A DNA stretch of 33,289 nt. It comes from Cryomorphaceae bacterium (lineage in GTDB: Bacteria; Bacteroidota; Bacteroidia; Flavobacteriales; Schleiferiaceae). The notes under the pieces were generated by a model. That model was given only the letters and a program-made list of their open reading frames with translations, was not told the DNA's origin and made no database searches. Numbering within the stretch: position 1 is the first letter of the stretch; the number at the start of each line of letters is the position of its first letter. The translations under genes and the position numbers were made by a program. Below, piece by piece: positions 1,989 through 27,714 of this stretch. The stretch covers positions 1 to 33,289 of the forward strand of contig JABMNC010000044.1 in assembly GCA_013205365.1 (NCBI GenBank). The letters are read 5' to 3'.

Positions 1989-2025
1989 CTTCAGGCTGCA
2001 CTCTTCCCGGCGCAATCGGATTATC

Positions 2026-2199
2026 GTTCGAGGCAGGTCTTCTGGCTCATTCCCTCATACGCCCCCTTCCCGGTTTCCCAGTGGGTATCTGCGGCGCAGA
2101 GTTAGGTGGAATTTACAGCTGCGGGCACAGCTCCGGTATTGCACCGGATTCCCTTTTCAGCAAGCATCCTAAGTCGATCTCAGGGCTTGCACCACGAAC
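2026..2199 (-). promoter_or_regulatory. Cobalamin (B12) riboswitch
   Basis: On the minus strand this leader carries the hallmark elements of the cobalamin riboswitch core: GGTGCAAGCCC near the 5' side, then GGGAATCCGGTGCAATACCGG, GCTGTGCCCGCAGCTGTAA (the B12-box region), and GAGCCAGAAGACCTGCC at the 3' side. The outer P1 helix can be drawn between GTTCG (2195-2199) and CGAAC (2026-2030), which fixes the boundaries. About 37 nt separate P1 from the receptor ATG at 1988 and must hold the expression platform. I see no U-tract terminator there, so translational control is the simpler reading (inference). Confidence 0.97.
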
Positions 2200-2201
2200 A
2201 C

Positions 2202-3071
2202 TCAAAGGTAGTTGAAAAATTCCCTCGCCGCATTGTGCGCACTTTCAAGAGCCAGGGGTTTTATGCCGAAGGTGGCCCCGCGAGCCGTCGCGAATGTCAG
2301 CAGAGCCTCAGTGGGCAAATTGCCCACAAGTTCATTTTGGGCATAGGGGCATCCGCCCAGGCCAAGCAGCGCGGTATCAAAACGCCGAATACCCGAATCC
2401 CATGCCGCATCCAAAAGTCCGTTGCTTAAGGCATTGGCGGCAGGCATATGCAGGTGCAGTCCAAGTTCCGCAGTACCCGCCTCCTTGCGCACCGCGGATA
2501 CTACCGAGCGAATTCCCTTAGGACTGGCATTGCCCACGGTGTCGCTGATTGAGAGCACATGAGGATTAAATCGCTTCACCACCCGTGCGGTCCACTCGGC
2601 CACCAAGTCAATGCTGTGGGCCTCGCCATAGGGATTCCCAAAGGCCATAGAGAGGTAGACCACCAGCTGCTTGTCGCCCGCGTGCAGGCGATCCATCGAG
2701 GCGGACCAATCGTCTAAGGCATGCTCCTGGGAACGCTTGGTATTGCGAATTTGAAACTGCTCGCTCAGTGAAAAGGGAACGCCAACGGCGTCTACGGCCT
2801 CGTGAGCCAATGCAGCATCGATTCCTTGGCTGTTAGCAGCAATAACCAAAAACTTGTTAAGACCCTTGTCGGGAGCAAGTGCGTCAAGTACTTGAACCGA
2901 ATCAACCATTTGCGGAATTGCCTTGGGAGAAACAAAGCTCGCCAGGTCGAGGCAGTCAAACCCCACGGCCATTAGTCGGCGGAGGTAGGCAATCTTGTCT
3001 TCGGTGCGAAACACCGTTGCATAGCCCTGCATGGCGTCCCGCGGACACTCGATCCAAGTTATTGCTTCCAT
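2202..3071 (-). CDS. Hydroxymethylglutaryl-CoA lyase family protein
   Basis: This 289-residue protein belongs to the HMGL-like TIM-barrel family, which cleaves 3-hydroxy-3-methylglutaryl-CoA to acetyl-CoA and acetoacetate in leucine catabolism. Seen in the sequence: the N-terminal ECPRDAMQG motif with the Arg-Asp pair (standard form G-P-R-D-G-x-Q), SDTVGNASP in the middle, HLH as metal-ligand histidines, and the active-site cysteine loop GLGGCPYA followed by VGNLPTE. After HLH the canonical Asp-Thr is replaced by Met-Pro; as I recall, Bacteroidetes homologues commonly deviate here. The ATG at 3071 overlaps the end of pyrD by 13 nt, so the two are co-transcribed. A related acyl-CoA lyase specificity cannot be excluded. 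Confidence 0.87.
   Translation of the reverse strand: MEAITWIECPRDAMQGYATVFRTEDKIAYLRRLMAVGFDCLDLASFVSPKAIPQMVDSVQVLDALAPDKGLNKFLVIAANSQGIDAALAHEAVDAVGVPFSLSEQFQIRNTKRSQEHALDDWSASMDRLHAGDKQLVVYLSMAFGNPYGEAHSIDLVAEWTARVVKRFNPHVLSISDTVGNASPKGIRSVVSAVRKEAGTAELGLHLHMPAANALSNGLLDAAWDSGIRRFDTALLGLGGCPYAQNELVGNLPTEALLTFATARGATFGIKPLALESAHNAAREFFNYL
2203..2210 (-). promoter_or_regulatory. -7 promoter box for the B12 riboswitch transcript
   Basis: The minus strand reads TACCTTTG, an exact match to the Bacteroidetes -7 word TAnnTTTG, ending 3 nt before the P1 5' strand of the riboswitch. The box overlaps the stop codon of the upstream lyase gene. It places the transcript start at or just before the riboswitch's first helix. 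Confidence 0.75.
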
Positions 3072-4090
3072 GCCGGCGAAAGTTGGCGAACCATAGCGGG
3101 CCCGGCGTATACAAATCCTGAGTAAACCTGCACTAAATCCGCACCGGCATTGAGCTTATCGGTAACGTCTTGGGCCCGTCGAACCCCTCCAACGCCCACT
3201 ACCGAAGCACTTTGACCTACCGACTCGCGCACCCAGCCTACTACCTCGGTGGATCGTTTGGCTATTGGCGCACCACTAAGACCCCCTGCTCCAATGGCTT
3301 GAAGCCGGCCCTCTGGTGTGGAAAGGCCCGAGCGCCCGATGGAGGTATTGGTCGCAATAATGCCCTGAACCCCGCACTCCACGGCAAGAACAGCCGTGCG
3401 TTGAACGTGGTCCTTGTCGGAGTCTGGATCAATTTTAAGGGCCACGGGCTTGCCGCCCAAGCGCTTAGCTTCAGTGCAGACGGCAAGCAAGAGCTCGCGC
3501 ATGCTGCTGGCTGACTGCAAATCCCTCAGGCCAGGCGTATTGGGAGACGATACGTTGACGGCGATGTAGTCCACCTCTGCGTATAGGGCGTTTAAGGCCG
3601 CGAGGTAGTCTTCGGTTGCGCCTACGTTGGGGGTGGTTTTATTGCGGCCGATGTTGCCCCCGACAATGATGCTCTGGTGCCGAGAACTGCGAATTCGTGA
3701 AGCGGCAGCCTCAGCACCCATGTTATTGAAGCCCATGCGGTTAATGAGAGCCTCGTCTTCGGGCAGGCGAAACAAGCGAGGCTGCGGGTTACCTAGCTGG
3801 GCCCGCGGTGTCACCGTACCGATTTCGAGGTGGCTGAACCCGAGGGCCTCCCACGCTCTAAGCGCCACGGCGTTTTTGTCCATTCCCGCAGCAAGGCCCA
3901 GCGGATGCTTAAATTCTAAGCCCATAGCCTTTACTGGCGCCGAAGGAATACTTCCATAAGCGGCCCGGAGCGCTGCCGATGCCAATGCACTATTGGAGGC
4001 AAACTGGAGTCCGCCCATAATAAGATTGTGGGCCTGCTCGGGAGACAGCAGTTTGAATAAAAGGGGGCGCAGCAGAGCAGAATAAAGCAT
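3059..4090 (-). CDS. pyrD: Dihydroorotate dehydrogenase (quinone), class 2
   Basis: This is the FMN enzyme that oxidises dihydroorotate to orotate in pyrimidine synthesis and passes electrons to membrane quinone. Its 343 residues match class 2. The N-terminal amphipathic extension (MLYSALLRPLLFKLLSPEQAH) is the membrane-association element that defines the class. Further motifs are GLAAGMDKNA (about 65-74), GTVTPRAQLGNPQPRLFRL (91-109), NRMGFNN (118-123) and NVSSPNTPGLRDLQ with the catalytic serine near 181. The C-terminal phosphate-binding parts GGLSGAPI and VGVGGV are also present. It is the first gene of a minus-strand unit with the HMG-CoA-lyase-like gene and diverges from smpB across a 38-nt gap holding a promoter for each direction. 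Confidence 0.97.
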   Translation of the reverse strand: MLYSALLRPLLFKLLSPEQAHNLIMGGLQFASNSALASAALRAAYGSIPSAPVKAMGLEFKHPLGLAAGMDKNAVALRAWEALGFSHLEIGTVTPRAQLGNPQPRLFRLPEDEALINRMGFNNMGAEAAASRIRSSRHQSIIVGGNIGRNKTTPNVGATEDYLAALNALYAEVDYIAVNVSSPNTPGLRDLQSASSMRELLLAVCTEAKRLGGKPVALKIDPDSDKDHVQRTAVLAVECGVQGIIATNTSIGRSGLSTPEGRLQAIGAGGLSGAPIAKRSTEVVGWVRESVGQSASVVGVGGVRRAQDVTDKLNAGADLVQVYSGFVYAGPAMVRQLSPAWKQ

Positions 4091-4098
4091 GGAGTTTT

Positions 4099-4106
4099 CA
4101 AAGGTA
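4099..4106 (-). promoter_or_regulatory. -7 promoter box for pyrD
   Basis: TACCTTTG on the minus strand is an exact TAnnTTTG match, 8 nt upstream of the pyrD ATG. With initiation a few bases downstream, the leader would be only a few nucleotides long. Confidence 0.7.
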
Positions 4107-4116
4107 GCGCCGGGGT

Positions 4117-4124
4117 TAGATTTG
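4117..4124 (+). promoter_or_regulatory. -7 promoter box for smpB (near-leaderless)
   Basis: TAGATTTG on the plus strand is an exact TAnnTTTG match. Only four bases (CAGT) separate it from the smpB ATG, so transcription should begin at or within a base or two of the start codon. No ribosome binding site fits in that space. Confidence 0.7.
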
Positions 4125-4128
4125 CAGT

Positions 4129-4566
4129 ATGAATCCGGTCATTGTTAACAGACGGGCGCGCTTCGAATACGTTCTTGAGGAAGAGTTCACTGCCGGCTTG
4201 ATGCTGGCGGGAACCGAAGTCAAGGCCCTTCGAGACGGCAAGGCCAATCTGAGCGATGCCTACGCCTATGTTTCAGAAGCCGGCGAGGTTTGGATCAAAA
4301 ACCTCCACATTTCGGAATTTAAATTCGGAACCTACGCCAATCATGCTCCACTGCGCGAGCGCAAATTGCTTTTAAAGAAAAACGAGCTAAAAAAGATTCG
4401 CAAAGAATTGCAAAACAATGGATTGACCCTAATACCATTAAAGCTATACTTTACACCTAGAGGCTGGGCAAAACTCGATATCGCCCTGGCGCGAGGCAAG
4501 AAATTCTACGATAAAAGAGCCACCCTGAAAGAGCGCGACATCGATCGCGATGCGGCGCGGGAGTAG
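4129..4566 (+). CDS. smpB: SsrA-binding protein SmpB (trans-translation)
   Basis: SmpB binds tmRNA and delivers it to ribosomes stalled on truncated mRNAs. The 145-residue product has the family N terminus (NRRARFEYVLEEEFTAGLML), then AGTEVKALRDGKANLSDAYAY, an L-Y-F-T-P-x-G-W-A-K-L motif (KLYFTPRGWAKLDIALARGK) and the basic tail KFYDKRATLKERDIDRD. That tail probes the mRNA channel; here it ends shortly after DIDRDAARE, a little shorter than many relatives. It is a single-gene unit with its own promoter. Its stop codon directly abuts the stop of the opposing pcm gene (TAGCTA), leaving no intergenic sequence. The tmRNA gene itself is not in this window. Confidence 0.97.
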   Translation: MNPVIVNRRARFEYVLEEEFTAGLMLAGTEVKALRDGKANLSDAYAYVSEAGEVWIKNLHISEFKFGTYANHAPLRERKLLLKKNELKKIRKELQNNGLTLIPLKLYFTPRGWAKLDIALARGKKFYDKRATLKERDIDRDAARE

Positions 4567-5226
4567 CTATCGAGAAGACGAAACGTCCTTGAGCATCGGC
4601 ACAAAGCGAAAGCTGCCAAGATCTTCGTGAAGCCATTCACCGTCCTCACCCCGACGAACCTTGAGCATGCGCTGCTCGGACTCGACGGCTCCTATGGGCA
4701 CAATCAGCACGCCAGAGGGGCTTAATTGGTCGAGGAGTTCCTTGGGGAGCGCAGGTGCGGCGGCGGTAATTATAATGCCGTCAAAGGGAGCAAAGGCAGG
4801 CAAACCCTTGTAGCCGTCGCCAAACTTTTGATTCATGCGCTTGTAGCCAAGTTCCGCAAGCAATCGTTTGCTGAAGTCAAAGAGGGCCTTTTGGCGCTCT
4901 ATGGTATACACTCGATAGCCTAATTCCTCCAAAACAGCAGCCTGGTAGCCTGATCCGGTGCCAATTTCTAGGACCTTGGCTCCCGCCGCGAGCCCCAGGG
5001 CATTGGACTGAAAAGCTACCGTGTAGGGCTGCGAAATGGTTTGGCCTGAAGCAATGGGGAAGGCAACATCTTGGTAGGCAAACTCCTCAAAGGAACTCTC
5101 GAGGAATGCATGCCTAGGAACCCTCCCCATCGCCGCGAGAACAGTCTCGTTGTCTATGCCTTTGCTGCGCAAAATTGCGAGAAGCTGTAGGCGTTGGCCT
5201 TGATGTTTGGGCAGGTCGGGAGTCAC
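4567..5226 (-). CDS. pcm: Protein-L-isoaspartate O-methyltransferase
   Basis: This SAM-dependent enzyme methylates isoaspartyl residues to start repair of damaged proteins. Motifs seen are AYQDVAFPIASGQTISQPY (substrate region, conserved in PIMT), the SAM-binding VLEIGTGSGYQAAVLEELG, VYTIERQ, and the C-terminal VPIGA segment. The track start at 5241 is a TTG lying inside a likely -7 box. I prefer the GTG at 5226, giving 219 residues; homologues begin just before the KHQGQR-equivalent helix. Upstream of that GTG the minus strand reads TACTTTCG plus four bases, a one-mismatch version of the spacing seen at smpB and tsaD. The gene diverges from the lipoprotein at 5259. Confidence 0.93.
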   Translation of the reverse strand: MTPDLPKHQGQRLQLLAILRSKGIDNETVLAAMGRVPRHAFLESSFEEFAYQDVAFPIASGQTISQPYTVAFQSNALGLAAGAKVLEIGTGSGYQAAVLEELGYRVYTIERQKALFDFSKRLLAELGYKRMNQKFGDGYKGLPAFAPFDGIIITAAAPALPKELLDQLSPSGVLIVPIGAVESEQRMLKVRRGEDGEWLHEDLGSFRFVPMLKDVSSSR

Positions 5227-5244
5227 GGCCCGAAAGTACAACCT

Positions 5245-5252
5245 TACCTTTG
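5245..5252 (+). promoter_or_regulatory. -7 promoter box for the lipoprotein/sugar-transferase unit
   Basis: TACCTTTG is an exact TAnnTTTG match 6 nt before the ATG at 5259. It supports that ATG over the longer ORF-track start at 5175 and again implies a very short or absent leader. Confidence 0.7.
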
Positions 5253-5258
5253 GGGTCT

Positions 5259-6158
5259 ATGGGCACCGGTTCTCGAATTATCCACATCTTTTTAGCGGCT
5301 TGTGCCTTGACCCTAGTAGGAACGACGGCAAGCTGCGACCGCAATGAAGCTGCGCCCTGCGTTATTCTTGAAATTGACAGCCTTACCCTTGCTCCCGACC
5401 CGGCTCGCGGAACATCTAGTGCCCACATCCGCTCGGTATGGGTGGAGTCTGAAGGGAAAAACATTGGAGTCTTCCCCCTCCCTGCCAAAATCCCTTTGCC
5501 ACTTAGCAATCCTGCCTCCAAAGTGCGTATTTATCCGGGTGTCGAGGTAAATGGAATCAGCTCTTTTCAAGCGATTTATGAGTTTTATAAACCCTACGAA
5601 CGCGACCTAAACAGCAGCTTCGGCAGTACGGTTAAGTGGCCGCCTCTGGGCCCTGCCGTCTTGGAATACGAAACCTGGTCCAAGGTCGTTATTGTAGAGG
5701 ATTTTGAGTCCGCCGGAATTCAGCTCGCGCCCAGCCAGCGCAGCGATACGGTGTGGACCCTTACCTCCGCAGAACGATTCAACCCACCCCTTGGAGAAAG
5801 CAACAGTGCAAGCGGCATGATCATCCTAAGACCCGGACAGCAGATTTTTGAGGCCATTACTCAGCAGGCCTATGTTTTGCCCCGTGGCGGACAAAATGTT
5901 TATTTGGAATTCAACTACAAATCCACCATGCCCTTCAGCATGGGCGTAGTCGCCAACCAACCCGGCCAGACGACCCAGCAGTCTACGGTCACCTTTCGCG
6001 ATAAATCAGCGTGGGCCAAGGCCTACGTGAATTTGGTTACCGAGGTTTCTGGATTCCCTAGCGCCATTGACTACAACCTTTTTGTGGGTGCCGTCCGCAC
6101 GCGACCTGATAAGGCCGATACCCTTTGGCTCGACAACCTAAAGCTAGTGTACCGTTGA
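5259..6158 (+). CDS. Uncharacterised lipoprotein upstream of a sugar transferase
   Basis: I do not recognise a named family. The track ORF begins at 5175, but the ATG at 5259 follows a promoter box and starts a lipoprotein signal peptide (RIIHIFLAACALTLVGTTASC, Cys about 26), giving 299 residues. The mature part is rich in Thr, Ser and aromatic beta-strand segments. It contains paired phrases typical of extracellular beta-sandwich proteins, such as VYLEFNYKST and a closing DTLWLDNLKLVYR that is reminiscent of carbohydrate-binding-like jelly-roll folds. No enzyme motif is visible. Its stop codon overlaps the likely TTG start of the sugar transferase, so the two are translationally coupled, suggesting an envelope role linked to glycan synthesis (inference). 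It diverges from pcm. Confidence 0.8.
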   Translation: MGTGSRIIHIFLAACALTLVGTTASCDRNEAAPCVILEIDSLTLAPDPARGTSSAHIRSVWVESEGKNIGVFPLPAKIPLPLSNPASKVRIYPGVEVNGISSFQAIYEFYKPYERDLNSSFGSTVKWPPLGPAVLEYETWSKVVIVEDFESAGIQLAPSQRSDTVWTLTSAERFNPPLGESNSASGMIILRPGQQIFEAITQQAYVLPRGGQNVYLEFNYKSTMPFSMGVVANQPGQTTQQSTVTFRDKSAWAKAYVNLVTEVSGFPSAIDYNLFVGAVRTRPDKADTLWLDNLKLVYR

Positions 6159-10384: not shown

Positions 10385-11341
10385 TTAACGATTGGAAGGT
10401 TTGCTTAAACGATCCTGCAATCGGTATACGGTATTTTGGAGCAGGCGGAATGCAGCAGATCCCATGGCGTTCCCGCCCTTGTCGAGCAGGGGATTGATTT
10501 CGGTAAACTCAATGCAGCGGACCTTGGAATCATCAGCAAAAAGTTCGAGCAAATGCTTCGCTTCCGACTCCTCAAAACCTCCCGGAACTGGAGTGCCGGT
10601 ACCTACTGAAATGCTCGGATCCATGGAGTCCACGTCAAAAGACACATAAATCATGTCGCATTCCGCCATTTGACTGATAACCTGCTTCACGATGCTTTCG
10701 ATTCCTTGAGTGCGGACCTCGGGCACTCGAAAAACCTTAATGCCGTATTTGGCAATGAGTGCATTTTCTGGCCCTTCGGTACTTCGCAGACCAATGTAGG
10801 CCAAGTCTTCGGGACGCACTCTTTGGGTCGGACCCTTAAGCTTAATCCAAGATTCACGGGTCACCAAACTCGGTTCGTTTATTTTACAGGCTAGATTGTC
10901 TTCGCCCAATGCGGTTGCCAGGGGCATTCCGTGCAGATTACCCGAGGGAGAGGTGTAGGGGGAATGCAGGTCGGCGTGCGCATCAATCCAAACCACCCCG
11001 AGCCTCGCCAAGGGAAAAGCCTGCTTGATTCCCGCAATGGTTCCGCCTGCATTGGAGTGGTCTCCACTAATTATCAGCGGGAACTGCCCGTCGTCAAGGG
11101 TTTCGGCCACAACGGCTGAGATGCGACGGTACATGCGCACGATGCCTCGAATCCTTTTGCCATAGGGAGTCTCGGGATGACGGTAGAGAAGGGCGTTGTT
11201 AGTTTGCACCTTGCGAGGCTGCAGGGACCTAAAAAACTTGGGCTGAATGCGAAAGGATGCACTGCGAATGGCGGCGTATCCGAGGCTCGATCCTCGAGTG
11301 CCTGCTCCCAATTCAGACATGGCCGTTATCAACTGCAGCAT
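10385..11341 (-). CDS. Arginase (ureohydrolase family)
   Basis: This 318-residue manganese enzyme most likely hydrolyses arginine to ornithine and urea. All family metal-binding motifs are visible: GDHS, VWIDAHADLHSP, the substrate loop SPSGNLHGMPLA, SFDVDSMDPS with two Asp ligands, and EINP in the position of ENP. The opening ELGAGTRGSSLGYAAIR is the arginase-type N terminus, and TSPSGNLHGMPLA favours arginase over agmatinase or formimidoylglutamase. The ATG at 11341 sits 4 nt after an exact -7 box, which favours it over the internal Met at residue 8. It leads a two-gene unit with argS, so the consumer of arginine and the tRNA-Arg charging enzyme share one promoter. Confidence 0.88.
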   Translation of the reverse strand: MLQLITAMSELGAGTRGSSLGYAAIRSASFRIQPKFFRSLQPRKVQTNNALLYRHPETPYGKRIRGIVRMYRRISAVVAETLDDGQFPLIISGDHSNAGGTIAGIKQAFPLARLGVVWIDAHADLHSPYTSPSGNLHGMPLATALGEDNLACKINEPSLVTRESWIKLKGPTQRVRPEDLAYIGLRSTEGPENALIAKYGIKVFRVPEVRTQGIESIVKQVISQMAECDMIYVSFDVDSMDPSISVGTGTPVPGGFEESEAKHLLELFADDSKVRCIEFTEINPLLDKGGNAMGSAAFRLLQNTVYRLQDRLSKPSNR

Positions 11342-11345
11342 ATTC

Positions 11346-11353
11346 CAAAGGTA
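11346..11353 (-). promoter_or_regulatory. -7 promoter box for arginase-argS (near-leaderless)
   Basis: TACCTTTG on the minus strand is an exact TAnnTTTG match, separated from the arginase ATG by the four bases GAAT. It is one arm of a perfect inverted repeat shared with the ftsK promoter. Confidence 0.75.
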
Positions 11354-11363
11354 GGAATTGGCC

Positions 11364-11371
11364 TACCTTTG
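11364..11371 (+). promoter_or_regulatory. -7 promoter box for the ftsK operon
   Basis: TACCTTTG is an exact TAnnTTTG match, 10 nt upstream of the ftsK ATG at 11382. It supports this start and a leader of only a few nucleotides. Confidence 0.7.
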
Positions 11372-11381
11372 AACGCAGTCC

Positions 11382-13754
11382 ATGGCCCGAACTTCCAAAA
11401 ACTCCACGTCGTCGAGATTAAGCGACCTAAAGTCAGCCTGGCTAGACGTCAAGCAGAGCCCATCCCTTCACGCAGTACTCGGTCTGACCGTCCTTTTTAT
11501 CGGACTCTTGGGCTTTGTTGCCAGCACTTCGACCCTCTTCACTTGGACTTCGGACTACAGTGCCCTTGAGCTGGGTTTTGCCCAGGTTTTGAGCCAGCGC
11601 GACATCGTCATTCAAAATACCCTCGGCTCCATCGGCGCAGCGGTGGGCATGGTGGTAACGGTGCGCGGATTTGGTATCGCCTCCCTCCTTCTTTGGACCG
11701 TGATCATGGCCTTTGGCTTGCGCTGGGGTTTGGGAATCGAACTCAGGGCACTTCGCTGGGCGAGGCGCAGTTTGCTTAGGGCATTGTTAATTACTTCAGG
11801 GCTTGCACTGCTGCCTTGGAACGCCGGCGACGCCGTGGTCGGGGACTATGGACGCGTTATTGCAACCTGGTCCACACACTGGCTAGGCCTTCTCGGGGCC
11901 TGCTTGACCTGGATGGTCCTTGCCCTGATCCACACAGTATGGGTTTTTCAGCTGCGTCCGCAAATGCTCGGGCAGCACCTGGCCAACCGCTTTGCGGCAA
12001 CCGACGCCCTGAATGAAGTCCCAATCGACGAAGAGGCTGAGCTAATTCCCGACGAAGGCCCCTTGGTGGTTGACCTGTTTGGCAGCGAGCCAAATCAAAG
12101 TCCGCCATGGAATGAAGACGATGAGGATCTTGCACTCGAGCCAAGCATGGTCGCAGATGATGACCTCGATCTCGAGATTCAATCGACGGTTGAGGCTCCA
12201 CAGGCCAGCCCCTCACTGGTCAAACCGGCTGCTGCCTCTGATATGGGACCCTACGACCCGAGACGCGACCTTTCGCGCTACCAAACCCCTCCCCTTCAGC
12301 TGCTCAATGACTACGGGCAATCCACGGCCAAAGTGGACCAAGAGGAACTGGAGGCCAATAAGGAGCGGATTCTTGAAACCCTGCGCAACTACAAAATCGA
12401 GATTTCTAAGATCAAGGCCACCGTGGGTCCAACAGTAACCCTCTATGAAATTGTTCCCGAGGCCGGAGTCCGCATCAGTAGGATTAAGTCGCTAGAGGAC
12501 GACATCGCGCTAAGTCTGAGTGCTTTGGGCATAAGAATTATTGCTCCTATCCCCGGTAAAGGAACCATTGGCATCGAGGTACCAAACCGTCACCCCCAGA
12601 TGGTGAGCATGCGGTCGGTGCTGGCCTCAGAAAAGTTCCAGAAGTCTGATATGGATTTACCCTTGGCCTTGGGCAAGACCATCTCTAACGAGGTTTATAT
12701 TGTTGACCTTGCCAAAATGCCCCACCTCCTGATGGCTGGTGCTACGGGTCAGGGTAAGTCGGTGGGGCTCAATGCGATTATCGCATCGATTTTGTACAAG
12801 AAGCACCCGGCTGAGGTAAAGTTTGTACTGGTGGACCCCAAAAAGGTGGAACTGACCCTCTACAACACCATTGAACGGCACTTTTTGGCCAAGCTGCCTG
12901 GGGACGATGAGGCCATTATTACGGACACCAACAAGGTAATTTACACGCTGAACTCCTTGTGCATTGAGATGGATCAGCGCTATGAATTGCTGAAGTCTGC
13001 CATGGTGCGGAATCTCAAGGAATACAATGTCAAGTTCACTGCCCGCAAACTCAACCCTGAGGAGGGGCACCGCTATTTGCCCTACATTATTTTGGTGATT
13101 GACGAGTTTGCCGATTTAATTATGACTGCCGGCAAAGAGGTTGAAATGCCGATCGCTCGGCTTGCTCAGCTTGCACGCGCCATTGGCATTCACTTGATTG
13201 TGGCCACACAGCGTCCTTCGGTAAACGTTATCACGGGCATTATTAAAGCGAACTTCCCAACGCGTATTGCCTTTAAGGTCAGTGCCAAGATTGACTCCCG
13301 CACGATTCTCGATGCGGGCGGCGCGGAACAATTAATAGGCAAGGGCGACATGCTAATCTCGAGCGGCAACGACTTGATTCGCCTGCAGTGTGCCTTTTTG
13401 GATACCCCCGAGGTGGAGCAAATTTGCGAGTTTATTGGGAGCCAGCAAGGTTATCCCGATGCCTACCAGCTGCCAGAATACGAGTCCGAGGAGGGCCGCC
13501 TTGGCGGTGGCGGCAACTTTAGTGCCGAGGAACGCGACAGCATGTTTGAAGAGGCCGCTCGCATGGTAGTAATTCACCAGCAGGGCTCGGCATCGCTTTT
13601 GCAACGCAAGCTTAAGCTTGGCTACAATCGCGCAGGTCGCTTGGTCGATCAGCTCGAAGACGCTGGAATCATTGGCCCCTTTGAGGGGTCCAAGGCACGC
13701 CAAGTTCTGATTCAGGATGAAGTGCAACTTAACGAACGTCTCAAAAACTTATGA
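11382..13754 (+). CDS. ftsK: DNA translocase FtsK
   Basis: FtsK anchors at the division septum and pumps DNA during chromosome segregation and dimer resolution. The 790-residue protein shows all expected parts. There are about four membrane segments within residues 28-190, then a short acidic linker (about 205-285) with EDDEDLALE-like stretches. The alpha/beta motor domain carries the Walker A GATGQGKSVG near 453 and Walker B ILVIDEFADLI near 570, followed by LARAIGIHLIVATQRPSVNVITG. A C-terminal gamma winged helix (about 725-790) with YNRAGRLVDQLEDAGIIGP would read the polar KOPS-like sequences. The linker is far shorter than in E. coli, as usual outside Gammaproteobacteria. It is the first gene of a six-gene coupled run; lolA overlaps its stop by 4 nt. 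Confidence 0.98.
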   Translation: MARTSKNSTSSRLSDLKSAWLDVKQSPSLHAVLGLTVLFIGLLGFVASTSTLFTWTSDYSALELGFAQVLSQRDIVIQNTLGSIGAAVGMVVTVRGFGIASLLLWTVIMAFGLRWGLGIELRALRWARRSLLRALLITSGLALLPWNAGDAVVGDYGRVIATWSTHWLGLLGACLTWMVLALIHTVWVFQLRPQMLGQHLANRFAATDALNEVPIDEEAELIPDEGPLVVDLFGSEPNQSPPWNEDDEDLALEPSMVADDDLDLEIQSTVEAPQASPSLVKPAAASDMGPYDPRRDLSRYQTPPLQLLNDYGQSTAKVDQEELEANKERILETLRNYKIEISKIKATVGPTVTLYEIVPEAGVRISRIKSLEDDIALSLSALGIRIIAPIPGKGTIGIEVPNRHPQMVSMRSVLASEKFQKSDMDLPLALGKTISNEVYIVDLAKMPHLLMAGATGQGKSVGLNAIIASILYKKHPAEVKFVLVDPKKVELTLYNTIERHFLAKLPGDDEAIITDTNKVIYTLNSLCIEMDQRYELLKSAMVRNLKEYNVKFTARKLNPEEGHRYLPYIILVIDEFADLIMTAGKEVEMPIARLAQLARAIGIHLIVATQRPSVNVITGIIKANFPTRIAFKVSAKIDSRTILDAGGAEQLIGKGDMLISSGNDLIRLQCAFLDTPEVEQICEFIGSQQGYPDAYQLPEYESEEGRLGGGGNFSAEERDSMFEEAARMVVIHQQGSASLLQRKLKLGYNRAGRLVDQLEDAGIIGPFEGSKARQVLIQDEVQLNERLKNL

Positions 13755-22200: not shown

Positions 22201-23051
22201 AGGGCGAGGCCCGGAGCCCTAAGCTCGAGCTCGTGGACTAATTCGCCCCATCGTCCCTGAGCATGCGCCTCAAACTGACCCCATTGCAAGCGCTGCTCGG
22301 GCATTTTCCATTCGTTCTTGCTCTGGTAGGCATTTAAAACAACCGCATTCGATGAGTCGTCCGATACCGCTATGCGAATTGCCTTGGGCGAATAATTCAC
22401 TTCGGCCAAAAGGTTGGACCAGCGTACTTCGGCTTCTGCGGCGTCAGAATCCATGCGAATCTTGGCCTCAATAAGACTAGCGCCAGGCAGATCAAGTCCC
22501 AGGCTCGCGTCAAGTCCCAGAGAATTCGAGGCCCAAACCAGCTGCTTAATGCGGAGCTTAGAGGGGGCAATCAAAGTGTCTCCCTGAACGTCGCGCGCCC
22601 AAAAACCCAGCTCTACCTCACCAATCTCGCAGGAAAAGACCGAGGTACTGGAGTCTGAGGGGTCGGTCCAGGGACTGAACCAGTCCAGCCACTTGGAGTC
22701 AGGAATACCACTAACCACTAAGGAATCCAGAATGAGTCGGTCTGCATAAAGTCTTCCCTTGCGCCATCCCAGGCCCGTGAGTTCGGCACTGCCCAAGAAC
22801 AAGCCCTCCTCGGCCCGATGAATGCGTAATCCATTAATCTCAATTCCTCGCAACGGCTTCCAGGTAATGGAGCGGAACTCCATGCGAGCAGAGTCCGCCA
22901 AAGGATTGGCCTCAAGGTAGCCTCGGACCCATTTTTCTGCTGGGCGGCTGATCCAAACAGGGTTGAGCGCGAGCATGGCAAGGGTCAGGCCCAATACACC
23001 TATTAGACCAGCGAGAGTCCAAAGTGAAATTTTAACAATGCGCACAGCCAT
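19236..23051 (-). CDS. tamB: Translocation/assembly module TamB family protein
   Basis: This 1271-residue AsmA/TamB-type protein is thought to bridge inner and outer membranes, and relatives act in outer-membrane protein assembly or phospholipid transport. It has one N-terminal membrane anchor (SLWTLAGLIGVLGLTLAMLAL, about 9-30). A very long repetitive beta-strand region follows, typical of a hydrophobic-groove 'taco' fold. The C-terminal DUF490 domain holds RGTYLFTLGNLINKPFSLVTGGTIRW, then LTATGPLFQPQLAFDI and SSNSAAAQREMEASIGRSFLDD. It is somewhat shorter than many Bacteroidetes homologues. It diverges from tsaD, and its upstream region has only a partial -7 match (TAACTTCA, 4 nt before the ATG). 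No TamA/BamA partner is in the window. Confidence 0.94.
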   Translation of the reverse strand: MAVRIVKISLWTLAGLIGVLGLTLAMLALNPVWISRPAEKWVRGYLEANPLADSARMEFRSITWKPLRGIEINGLRIHRAEEGLFLGSAELTGLGWRKGRLYADRLILDSLVVSGIPDSKWLDWFSPWTDPSDSSTSVFSCEIGEVELGFWARDVQGDTLIAPSKLRIKQLVWASNSLGLDASLGLDLPGASLIEAKIRMDSDAAEAEVRWSNLLAEVNYSPKAIRIAVSDDSSNAVVLNAYQSKNEWKMPEQRLQWGQFEAHAQGRWGELVHELELRAPGLALRASERDGSVKATLRADSTKQPDRSQWLLHGGLEANYSDSNWTVQGKNLNARWLEQRAQFTSIDLSGTSSRWRALVEESTYGRIEAQGDYGLRSVALLWLPLSPLKPLEDLPSVHRVRALWSALEPNALVASAEDSLATVARFKATQSSNAWNIEASWGDYQLKAMFKRSPDQWNFGASSSSDLASQLVAGKLQILDSLGLKKLDALGPSLEVHLENSEQFTRGSAKYLDKGQIGRWDYLANASMVRHELTWDGPEKAEAVLIARPGDSLKVQLTGLANHPRGGEFEAQMQIWPYGSKWNGRLVDGYGDAWYKPEDGDSLRIHGILQGADRFSYDFNKGRVALDEALFWNCSEGQLALDGAWSPIEGEFLRLRARGLNLPFWTKVAGLEQFEFGGSVSIDAKFMNRQAGWAVSGGLQSENLSMKQQPLGGVSLGLDFVPDREAADLSLRWDHGDTAILHVNGSYGVNGLEAVSEQISIPVRWARPFADGAINALDGRIKGRAQCSAQSNFSDIRWEGSGFWTNAGLTIPALGLGLRGTAPWVLGQKSLKMGPSRFADHRGVGSAEVSVNLNFEAQQFIDLRFKTEGMVVMDLPPSPKADFYGYVVASGTGDLKGSASSLRMNVSAKSVDSSVFVLPLDAPVSLEEVKFLTFRSRAEPLKPRQRNTEDFKFDLHLDLEVTQDILAQLILDETLGDVIEARGTGPISLDVPWVGDMMLRGNLTMDRGTYLFTLGNLINKPFSLVTGGTIRWSGDPYAAQMNLSALYRTRADVKDYLSLPDAGRQNLDVRLTATGPLFQPQLAFDIGMPNAGEIAQAALASRLSYSDERTTQVLSLLTISSFWLGSSPLSAQGMQAVESNTTQVLASQFSNFVTQGLGADWDVNLAYSSNSAAAQREMEASIGRSFLDDRLSIQTEWGIPIGQSQPSIGLGDIEIRYQLSEDGRWSTKAYQNKNNQMLQTGVVGSQRQGIGIRYEQSGASWRQLLQGPKKN

Positions 23052-23069
23052 GCCGTGAAGTTACGGACC

Positions 23070-23077
23070 TAATTTTG
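23070..23077 (+). promoter_or_regulatory. -7 promoter box for tsaD (near-leaderless)
   Basis: TAATTTTG is an exact TAnnTTTG match with the four bases TGCC between it and the tsaD ATG. The spacing is the same as at smpB and arginase. Confidence 0.7.
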
Positions 23078-23081
23078 TGCC

Positions 23082-24125
23082 ATGGCCGGCAATGAACCCC
23101 TAATACTCTCTATCGAAAGCAGCTGCGACGACAGCGCTGCGGCAGTTCTTCGGGGTCAGAGGGTATTGTCCAATGTTGTCTACGGCCAATCCGTGCACGA
23201 GCAGTTCGGCGGAGTCGTTCCTGAACTCGCATCCCGAGCGCACAGCCTTATGGCAGTCCCAACCGTACGGGCGGCGATGGAGCAGGCTGGAATTGCCTAC
23301 AGTGACCTCGATGCGGTTGCAGCCACCGAGGGGCCAGGGCTCTTGGGATCCCTACTTGTCGGCCACGGAATGGCCAAATCACTGGCCATGTCGCTTGAAA
23401 TTCCCTTCATTGGCGTCAACCACATTCAAGCCCACGTTCTTGCGCACAGCCTAATAGAACCGCGCGTTCAAGAGAATCCGCTTCAGGGCTTCCCTTTTTT
23501 GGCATTGGTCGTGTCGGGCGGACACACTCAGCTTTTTGACGTGCGATCCGCCTTTGATTTTGTGCTTTTGGGCGGAACCCTTGACGATGCCGTCGGTGAG
23601 GCATTCGACAAAACTGCCAAAAACCTTGGTCTTCCCTACCCCGGCGGGCCCGAGGTGGATCGGCTCGCGGAACTGGGCGACCCCAGCACCTTTGTTTTTG
23701 CCAAAATGCAGACCGCCGGGCTCAATTTTAGCTACAGCGGACTCAAAACCAGCATTCTTTACAGTATTCAAAAGGAACTGCGCAGCAACCCCGACACCCT
23801 GAAGGACCAACTCAATGATTGGTGCGCGTCGGCTCGGCAAACCCTGATTCAACCCTTGCTCGAACGGCTCGACCGCGCGCTTGGCCCTGAGCATCAATTT
23901 GTGGTACTGGCCGGCGGAGTCGCCGCCAATTCCTTGCTGCGCCGTGAAGCAAAAGCCTGGGCAGCCCGACGGGGAGTTCCCATAGGCATTCCACCCCTTA
24001 GCTATGCCACCGACAACGCCGCAATGATTGGAGCGGTCGCCTACTACGCCTATCAATCAGGGCGTTTTAGTTCCCTCAATGAAGCCGCCAGCGCAAGGCT
24101 AGAAGTACCTTCGCTTGATGAATGA
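23082..24125 (+). CDS. tsaD: tRNA N6-adenosine threonylcarbamoyltransferase TsaD
   Basis: TsaD transfers the threonylcarbamoyl group onto A37 of ANN-decoding tRNAs (t6A), working with TsaB, TsaE and TsaC/Sua5. The 347 residues match the family. It opens with ILSIESSCDDSAAAV and continues with VVPELASRAH. NHIQAH carries the metal-ligand histidines (H114 and H118), and LVVSGGHTQL, GGTLDDAVGEAFDKTAK, YPGGPEVDRLA and SYSGLKTS follow. The C terminus has VLAGGVAANSLLRR and SYATDNAAMIG. It leads an operon with the rimB-like gene, rimK and rsmE, all acting on tRNA, ribosomal protein or rRNA. Its last bases overlap the next start. Confidence 0.98.
   Translation: MAGNEPLILSIESSCDDSAAAVLRGQRVLSNVVYGQSVHEQFGGVVPELASRAHSLMAVPTVRAAMEQAGIAYSDLDAVAATEGPGLLGSLLVGHGMAKSLAMSLEIPFIGVNHIQAHVLAHSLIEPRVQENPLQGFPFLALVVSGGHTQLFDVRSAFDFVLLGGTLDDAVGEAFDKTAKNLGLPYPGGPEVDRLAELGDPSTFVFAKMQTAGLNFSYSGLKTSILYSIQKELRSNPDTLKDQLNDWCASARQTLIQPLLERLDRALGPEHQFVVLAGGVAANSLLRREAKAWAARRGVPIGIPPLSYATDNAAMIGAVAYYAYQSGRFSSLNEAASARLEVPSLDE
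24106..24113 (+). promoter_or_regulatory. Possible internal -7 box before the rimB-like gene
   Basis: TACCTTCG, inside the end of tsaD, is one base off TAnnTTTG and lies exactly 4 nt before the ATG at 24118. The pcm start shows the same TTCG variant and spacing. It could give separate expression of the rimB-rimK-rsmE part. Confidence 0.35.
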
Positions 24126-26189: not shown

Positions 26190-27691
26190 AAAACCTCGTC
26201 GAGCCCGCCCAAGGCCTGGGTTTGCACAAAATGCAGCGCTGCCTCCATGGCTTCGTGGGCATAATAGTCGCCGGGGCTAGCCGCATATTCCCGACGGAAT
26301 GATGCCTTCAAGGCCTCAAGCTTGGGGCCTAAGTCGCGGACGCTGCGCTCTGAGGCCTGAACCGCACAAAGCCATTCCATAGCCAGTATGCGCTCAACGT
26401 TCCCCAAAACTTCGTACAGGTCGGTCGCGGCGTTGGCGCCCATGCTCACGTGGTCTTCTTGGCCGGCGCTGCTGTCTATACTGTCGGCACTTGCAGGGGT
26501 AGCACGCTGCTTGTTGCGGCTCACTAGGGCCGCAGCTGCGTACTGCACGATCATAAGGCCACTCTCTACGCCACTGTCCACAGCGAGAAACATGGGAAGT
26601 CCGCGCTTGCCAAGGCAGAGCTGGTTGATGCGGCGCTCGCTTATGCTGCCCCACTCTGCACTGGCAATTTTAACGTAATCAAAGACCAAAGCAAGGGGCT
26701 GGCCGTGAAAATGACCTGCACTAACGCCGTCGCCAGAATCGGTGAAAACCAAGGGATTGTCGGTTACCGAGCAGGACTCGGTTTGAAGTACCCGCAGGGC
26801 ATGGGTCCAAGCGTCTCGGCTGGCTCCGTGAACCTGGGGCATGCAGCGAAACGAGTAGGGATCCTGAACGTGGACTTTGCCGTAGTGCCACCCGGGCGAA
26901 CCATCGGCCCAAGTGCGTACGCTGCGCGCCACCCCTACCTGGCCATGGTGCGGACGCAGAGCATGAACACGTTCCTCAAAGGGCGAGGGCATTCCGTCAT
27001 AGGCAAGTAGGGATGCGGTTCCCACGGCGTCGGCCCAATGCGCTATTGCCGCAGCCTTGATTGCGCTAGCAAAACCAACTGCCTGCATGAACTGGGTTCC
27101 GTTAATGAGCGCAAGACCCTCCTTGGCCTCGAGTACTTGCGGGCTTAAGCCCAATTCCGCCCAAAACTGAGTTGCCAATTTGCGCTGGCCTCGATGGTGC
27201 ACAAAGCCTTCGCCAATCAGGGCAAGCGACAGGTGCGCAAGGGGTGCCAAGTCACCCGAAGCCCCGAGGGATCCCATAATGGGCACCTCCGGTAGGGCGT
27301 CTTCCTTGAGCAGGACGAGCAGCGCATCCAAAAGTTCGGGCCTAACGCCCGAGTGCCCGAGGGCTAGGTTACGCGCCTTGGTAGCGAGCATTAACCGCAC
27401 CATAGCGGGCTCCGCCAAGGGTCCCGACCCTGCCGCATGGCTAATAATTAGGTTGCGTTGAAGCTTTTGAAGGTCCTGCCGCTCCACTGCTATGGTGCAC
27501 AAGGCGCCAAACCCCGTATTTACCCCATAAACGATGCGACCCTCTTCAATTCCGCGGTCCAAAACGAGGCGATTTGCCGCTACGGCTTCTCGGTCAGCGC
27601 GCTCAAGCTGAAGCTGCGCCTGGCCCCTTGCAACGCTCTGCCACTGGCTAAGGGTCCATTCGGCGGTTAGGTTTAGTGCATTCAATGGCAT
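26186..27691 (-). CDS. hutH: Histidine ammonia-lyase
   Basis: HutH removes ammonia from histidine to give urocanate, the first step of histidine degradation. I use the ATG at 27691 (501 residues); the track start at 27709 is a TTG touching the promoter box. The self-processing MIO prosthetic-group site is in MGSLGASGDLAPLAHL, with Ala-Ser-Gly at 144-146. YGVNTGFG is at about 55-62. The selectivity loop reads NLIISHAAG, with Ser-His at 84-85 as in histidine-specific enzymes, not His-Leu (tyrosine) or Phe-Leu (phenylalanine). SSAGQEDHVSMGANAA is near the C terminus. It stands alone: no hutU, hutI or hutG is nearby, so those must lie elsewhere. Confidence 0.95.
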   Translation of the reverse strand: MPLNALNLTAEWTLSQWQSVARGQAQLQLERADREAVAANRLVLDRGIEEGRIVYGVNTGFGALCTIAVERQDLQKLQRNLIISHAAGSGPLAEPAMVRLMLATKARNLALGHSGVRPELLDALLVLLKEDALPEVPIMGSLGASGDLAPLAHLSLALIGEGFVHHRGQRKLATQFWAELGLSPQVLEAKEGLALINGTQFMQAVGFASAIKAAAIAHWADAVGTASLLAYDGMPSPFEERVHALRPHHGQVGVARSVRTWADGSPGWHYGKVHVQDPYSFRCMPQVHGASRDAWTHALRVLQTESCSVTDNPLVFTDSGDGVSAGHFHGQPLALVFDYVKIASAEWGSISERRINQLCLGKRGLPMFLAVDSGVESGLMIVQYAAAALVSRNKQRATPASADSIDSSAGQEDHVSMGANAATDLYEVLGNVERILAMEWLCAVQASERSVRDLGPKLEALKASFRREYAASPGDYYAHEAMEAALHFVQTQALGGLDEVF

Positions 27692-27706
27692 AAGTTTGGG
27701 TTTCAA

Positions 27707-27714
27707 CAAAAGTA
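27707..27714 (-). promoter_or_regulatory. -7 promoter box for hutH
   Basis: TACTTTTG on the minus strand is an exact TAnnTTTG match 15 nt before the hutH ATG at 27691. The divergent photorepair operon has no equally good box; its start region holds only TTAGAGTTTTT before the ATG. Confidence 0.65.

Follow-up and report, generated by a model that had tools for sequence, protein, structure and literature searches.

Promoter boxes set close before start codons and predicted leaderless mRNAs in a genus of Flavobacteriales

In the genome of a Cryomorphaceae bacterium (GTDB order Flavobacteriales, family Schleiferiaceae; GenBank assembly GCA_013205365.1), the promoter-like octamer TANNTTTG lies preferentially 4 or 5 nt before start codons, and this genome-wide positional bias is real. 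These boxes are very probably the -7 elements of ordinary primary-sigma promoters located near the start codon, with mRNAs that are leaderless or nearly so and that make up a major class in the genus. With moderate confidence, this can be widened to a joint reading, in which leaderless transcription is a main mode of gene expression of a free-living genus and serves about half of the recognizable box-promoted genes, divergent genes are packed on 30 to 49 bp, and the near-leaderless state of smpB is older and has been kept across much of the order.

The window, i.e., the whole 33,289-nt stretch of contig JABMNC010000044.1 that was analyzed, belongs to a small genome, a 1.52-Mb assembly of 169 contigs with a G+C content of ∼55% in the sampled part. 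Its TsaD protein is 95% identical to those of two Flavobacteriales assemblies (Baikal-G4 and UBA972) and 75 to 78% identical to those of assemblies labeled Schleiferiaceae, Cryomorphaceae, or merely Flavobacteriales, Bacteroidetes, or Bacteroidota; the Lake Baikal or other lake origin of the nearest named relatives suggests a freshwater habitat. Pfam searches confirmed SmpB, dihydroorotate dehydrogenase, an arginase family protein, FtsK, TsaD, protein-L-isoaspartate methyltransferase (PCMT), and a putative Zn-protease (the rimB-like gene), identified TamB as the divergent neighbor of tsaD, and returned no match for the lipoprotein.

The exact box with a 4-nt gap, which the earlier note had reported for smpB, the arginase family gene, and tsaD, is present at all three. 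The smpB box TAGATTTG (positions 4117 to 4124, plus strand) is followed by CAGT and the ATG at 4129 to 4131 (whole pattern, 4117 to 4131), with which the predicted leaderless smpB gene begins (4129 to 4566, plus strand; PF01668, E value of 1.7e-54). The arginase family gene (PF00491) has TACCTTTG at 11346 to 11353 on the minus strand, separated by GAAT from the ATG at 11339 to 11341 (pattern 11339 to 11353), and tsaD (PF00814) has TAATTTTG at 23070 to 23077 on the plus strand, separated by TGCC from the ATG at 23082 to 23084 (pattern 23070 to 23084). Three such arrangements compare with 0.21 expected, and none of 100 dinucleotide shuffles of the window reached that number. The octamer alone is not enriched in the window (11 copies versus 14.4 expected), so the unusual feature is its placement.

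Two further boxes are TTCG variants at gap 4, as had been claimed (0.38 expected; 3 of 100 shuffles reached two). The variant TACTTTCG of pcm (5231 to 5238, minus strand) is separated by GGCC from a GTG codon at 5224 to 5226 (pattern 5224 to 5238). The variant TACCTTCG of the rimB-like gene (24106 to 24113, plus strand; ATG at 24118, pattern 24106 to 24120) has the same spacing, but it was set aside as probably coincidental: it falls within the codons for Glu-Val-Pro-Ser at the end of tsaD, a coding sequence that most relatives retain without the spacing to an ATG. The lipoprotein, pyrD, and ftsK genes, described earlier as nearly as close to their boxes, indeed have gaps of 6, 8, and 10 nt, but only the first could count as near-leaderless, the gap-8 and gap-10 genes being short-leadered. 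Their boxes all read TACCTTTG and are found at 5245 to 5252 on the plus strand (lipoprotein; ATG at 5259), 4099 to 4106 on the minus strand (pyrD; ATG at 4088 to 4090), and 11364 to 11371 on the plus strand (ftsK; ATG at 11382). Finally, tamB has a degenerate box, TAACTTCA, at 23056 to 23063 on the minus strand, 4 nt (CGGC) from its ATG at 23049 to 23051.

The earlier note expected a genome-wide peak at a distance of 4 nt, and such a peak was found. In a sample of 1.12 Mb of the source genome (120 stretches plus the window), counting only ATG codons that open an open reading frame (ORF) of at least 100 codons, gaps of 3 to 8 nt between the exact box and the ATG were represented by 8, 44, 28, 10, 8, and 6 sites, respectively, against a background of ∼2 to 3 per position; three control octamers gave 9 to 10 sites each, summed over the same gaps. 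The distance is thus not strictly fixed: 4 is the main peak, but 5 is also well populated, and a tail extends to 8. The TTCG variant peaks at gaps 4 and 5 as well (10 and 9 sites), GTG and TTG starts show a smaller peak at gap 4, and the exact gap-4 pattern counted genome-wide without the ORF filter has 49 matches versus 11 for a reversed control. Selection of starts by a dicodon score was tried and abandoned because it picked starts too far downstream; the histograms are therefore based on ORF length only.

Single cases such as the rimB-like gene do look coincidental, and the pattern is frequent in AT-rich genomes, both of which would be expected if the arrangement reflected chance or base composition. 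The histogram is nevertheless far from flat (44 sites at gap 4 versus ∼2; Poisson probability of <1e-40, on contigs partly chosen for the pattern), and on contigs sampled blindly, gaps 4 and 5 hold 16 sites versus 0.8 expected (P = 3e-16). Together with conservation across the genus at orthologous genes (see below), these counts already refute chance, which retains a negligible probability.

Many contigs of the second and third batches had been selected for holding the gap-4 pattern, so prevalence was estimated from loci L001 to L024 only (262 kb), nearly all of which were picked blindly by contig number, 3 of the 24 being later pieces of contigs already sampled. On these contigs, gaps 3 to 8 hold 23 exact boxes versus 2.3 for controls, an excess of ∼21, and gaps 9 to 80 hold 50 versus 30.7, an excess of ∼19. 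The near excess is thus about equal to the far excess, a half-and-half estimate that applies to exact boxes in 262 kb; promoters with degenerate boxes could sit further upstream, undetected. Counted from the side of the box, 129 of 464 exact boxes (28%) in the whole sample, and 28 of 108 on the blind contigs, lie 3 to 8 nt before the ATG or GTG of a long ORF.

The near boxes are oriented in the direction of the gene and match the -7 element (TAnnTTTG) of Bacteroidota primary-sigma promoters, which combine it with a -33 TTTG; the octamer is the same, and G is likewise rare in its two free positions. In mapped Flavobacterium promoters, the box occupies positions -12 to -5 and is separated from the transcription start by 4 or 5 nt (PMC6847099, PMC9723704). 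With this spacing, gap 4 would put the A of the ATG at +1, gap 5 would have transcription begin 1 nt upstream of it, and gaps 6 to 8 would yield starts 2 to 4 nt upstream. The leadered genes of the source genome point in the same direction, G being depleted beginning at the fourth base past the box, the probable transcript start. The resulting mRNAs would be translated from a 5'-terminal AUG (or GUG) with no leader. Genes of Bacteroidota have no Shine-Dalgarno sites, and their starts lie in A-rich contexts (PMC6847099). As for an anti-Shine-Dalgarno sequence, the source assembly lacks the 16S 3' end, and CACCTCCTT was matched at five sites in 4 of the 22 genus genomes, only one of these sites having the usual GGATCACCTCCTT.

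As the earlier note had remarked, -33 elements are weak or absent: TTTG is found 17 to 21 bp upstream of 2 of 126 near boxes, against ∼4.5 expected. Published promoters of F. johnsoniae also show little -33 signal (PMC6847099), a property common to both sets, so that the missing TTTG gives no ground for excluding the near boxes from the primary-sigma promoters.

Given that other start signals are conceivable where Shine-Dalgarno sites are missing and A-rich contexts are used (PMC6847099), the octamer might instead be a translation signal or a regulator site on a longer mRNA made from an upstream promoter. This is very unlikely: the octamer is the known -7 box of the phylum, its flanking preferences match those of the boxes of leadered genes, divergent start codons lie only 30 to 49 bp apart, and further boxes in the same orientation are almost lacking within 60 bp upstream (2 of 72 gap-4 and gap-5 genes at most). 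The bases around the start were also compared. Leadered and operon-internal starts have an A-rich context at about -3/-4 and at -11 to -14, and gap-4 starts have C at -4 (57%) and at -1 (59%); the -1 pyrimidine is weak evidence because it is common to operon-internal starts.

Conservation at orthologous genes is most extensive for smpB. Its box and 4-nt gap are identical in all 21 genomes of the genus in which the start could be read, with protein identities as low as 58%, and the start codon, unchanged in position, is ATG in some and GTG in others. Of 30 genomes sampled elsewhere in the order, 19 have a box 4 to 7 nt before the ATG (exact in 17, TTCG in 2), and of the other 11, two have a box at 20 and 33 nt and nine have none. 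The greater age of near-leaderless smpB is part of the joint reading given above and is favored to the same moderate degree; the titles and abstracts listed included none that tied smpB to leaderless mRNA in Bacteroidota. For tsaD, all seven close relatives retain both the box and the gap of 4, and in the six relatives read, the divergent tamB gene has TANNTTCG or TANNTTAG, likewise at gap 4. In a genome from a different family of the order (G036), a gap-4 site (contig C5, 203733 to 203747) is located directly upstream of tsaD. The pyrD box is kept in the genus with a varying gap, the lipoprotein box is kept in close relatives, and the pcm box at gap 4 is kept in the closest clade only. In place of this box, more distant members of the genus (L199, L194 to L198, and L203) have TAATTTGC upstream of pcm, at a gap of ∼8; this sequence agrees with TAnnTTGY, an alternative motif described for F. 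psychrophilum (PMC9723704).

These comparisons bear on the choice of start codons, which are predicted here, automatic start choice being unreliable. Conceivably, the -7 elements are genuine but translation really starts further downstream, leaving the mRNAs leadered and the gap-4 ATG unused. However, the distance from the box is locked to the ATG across the whole genome, the smpB and tsaD homologs begin at the gap-4 codon across the genus, and in smpB, ATG and GTG alternate in place, all of which makes downstream starts very unlikely.

A layout absent from the earlier note, and new here, is a frequent back-to-back arrangement of the boxes. Within 60 bp upstream of 25 of 72 gap-4 and gap-5 starts, the opposite strand carries a box that faces outward. 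The source-genome sample contains 23 divergent pairs with a box 3 to 12 nt before both starts, and in 19 of them the start codons are 30 to 49 bp apart and the boxes 6 to 23 bp apart, which leaves little room for leaders. Four such regions are found in the window: pyrD/smpB (38 bp, boxes 10 bp apart), pcm/lipoprotein (32 bp, boxes 6 bp apart), arginase/ftsK (40 bp, boxes 10 bp apart), and tamB/tsaD (30 bp, boxes 6 bp apart), the last of which, with its degenerate tamB box, is outside the count of 19 pairs. The divergent regions contain little besides their two -7 boxes, and the upstream contacts of each promoter overlie the start of the other. If neither a leader nor a -33 box is needed, divergent genes could share 30 to 49 bp with two outward-facing -7 boxes, a layout that may serve genome compaction. 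A single symmetric bidirectional element with a fixed box spacing was considered and rejected, the spacing being broad (6 to 23 bp) and the boxes separate.

Like the bidirectional bacterial promoters described by Warman, Grainger and colleagues (PMC12825309), these regions would give two divergent transcripts from one short segment, and here, too, the two polymerase sites should exclude each other. In E. coli, however, a single symmetric -10 element is shared, and the starts, which flank it or fall inside it, are 10 to 23 bp apart in the five promoters studied (PMC12825309), whereas the regions described here have two separate -7 boxes 6 to 23 bp apart and start codons 30 to 49 bp apart. The opposite orientation was also observed in the window: two boxes facing each other, TAAGTTTG (plus strand) and TACTTTTG (minus strand), are located at 27691 to 27714 between histidine ammonia-lyase-like and SDR-like genes, and judging from their positions, the 5' ends of the two transcripts would overlap.

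Every one of the 22 genomes of the genus shows a gap-4 excess, with totals of 1,316 gap-4, 852 gap-5, and 295 gap-14 sites. Along with the peak in the source genome and the conservation at orthologous genes, this supports, at the level of sequence, the prediction of the earlier note that several mRNAs would begin at or near the start codon. The excess amounts to ∼29 per Mb in the genus and mostly 1 to 13 per Mb in 17 other genomes of the order, two being below zero and two, G034 (40) and G037 (17), being exceptionally high; as a background, gap 14 is slightly biased where genomes are AT-rich, as leadered promoters occur there too (seen in the G034 histogram). G034, which is likewise a small genome from the order (1.9 Mb; G+C content of 31% in the sample, L205 to L224), has a strong peak of 19 gap-4 and 12 gap-5 sites in 400 kb, so the trait is confined neither to the genus nor to its higher G+C content. 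In a sample of 248 genomes of the phylum, the gap-4 excess is patchy, and a high AT content makes chance occurrences of the pattern common.

In 30 genomes from 28 other genera of the order (∼100 kb around smpB, with smpB itself left out), only 3 boxes fall in gaps 3 to 8 (control of 2.3, smpB included) and 49 fall in gaps 9 to 80, a split that differs (Fisher P = 0.0006) from that on the contigs sampled blindly. In this small sample, the other genera thus show almost no near excess, in line with the small leaderless shares reported for F. psychrophilum (5.5% of mRNAs; PMC9723704) and B. thetaiotaomicron (3.7% with a leader under 10 nt; PMC7366714). These two species share with the genus studied here the phylum, the promoter box, and leaderless mRNAs (predicted here), but such mRNAs are rare there, whereas here the near excess equals the far excess on the blind contigs; a high leaderless share would be a departure from both figures. 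In F. johnsoniae, 87% of predicted transcripts have leaders of >10 nt (PMC6847099), and, unlike in the mapped Bacteroidota species, where most leaders exceed 10 nt, the start codon of a large share of genes here would coincide with +1 or adjoin it. Another parallel is provided by the TA-led genes of Actinobacteria and Deinococcus-Thermus (PMC3160421), likewise a sizeable class with a fixed short distance from box to start, seen here in the peak at gaps 4 and 5 and in the conserved smpB and tsaD sites; the sigma box there is TANNNT, as opposed to TAnnTTTG.

How ribosomes of Bacteroidota find starts without Shine-Dalgarno sites is an open question, and leaderless mRNA had been set aside as an answer because of its rarity in the mapped species. 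A genus in which it is apparently common provides a natural contrast inside one order, with smpB and tsaD as named genes for tests in culturable relatives. The survey of TA-led genes filed many Bacteroidetes genes as atypical and left their leaderless status open (PMC3160421); in a phylum with many such genes, box placement is a start-site signal that gene finders could use.

Box placement can also be seen at an RNA element of the window. A cobalamin riboswitch (Rfam RF00174, 108.7 bits; 2015 to 2211, minus strand) is located upstream of a TonB-receptor-like ORF, and its promoter box, TACCTTTG (2203 to 2210, minus strand), abuts the first helix of the aptamer, so that the riboswitch RNA probably starts at the edge of the aptamer.
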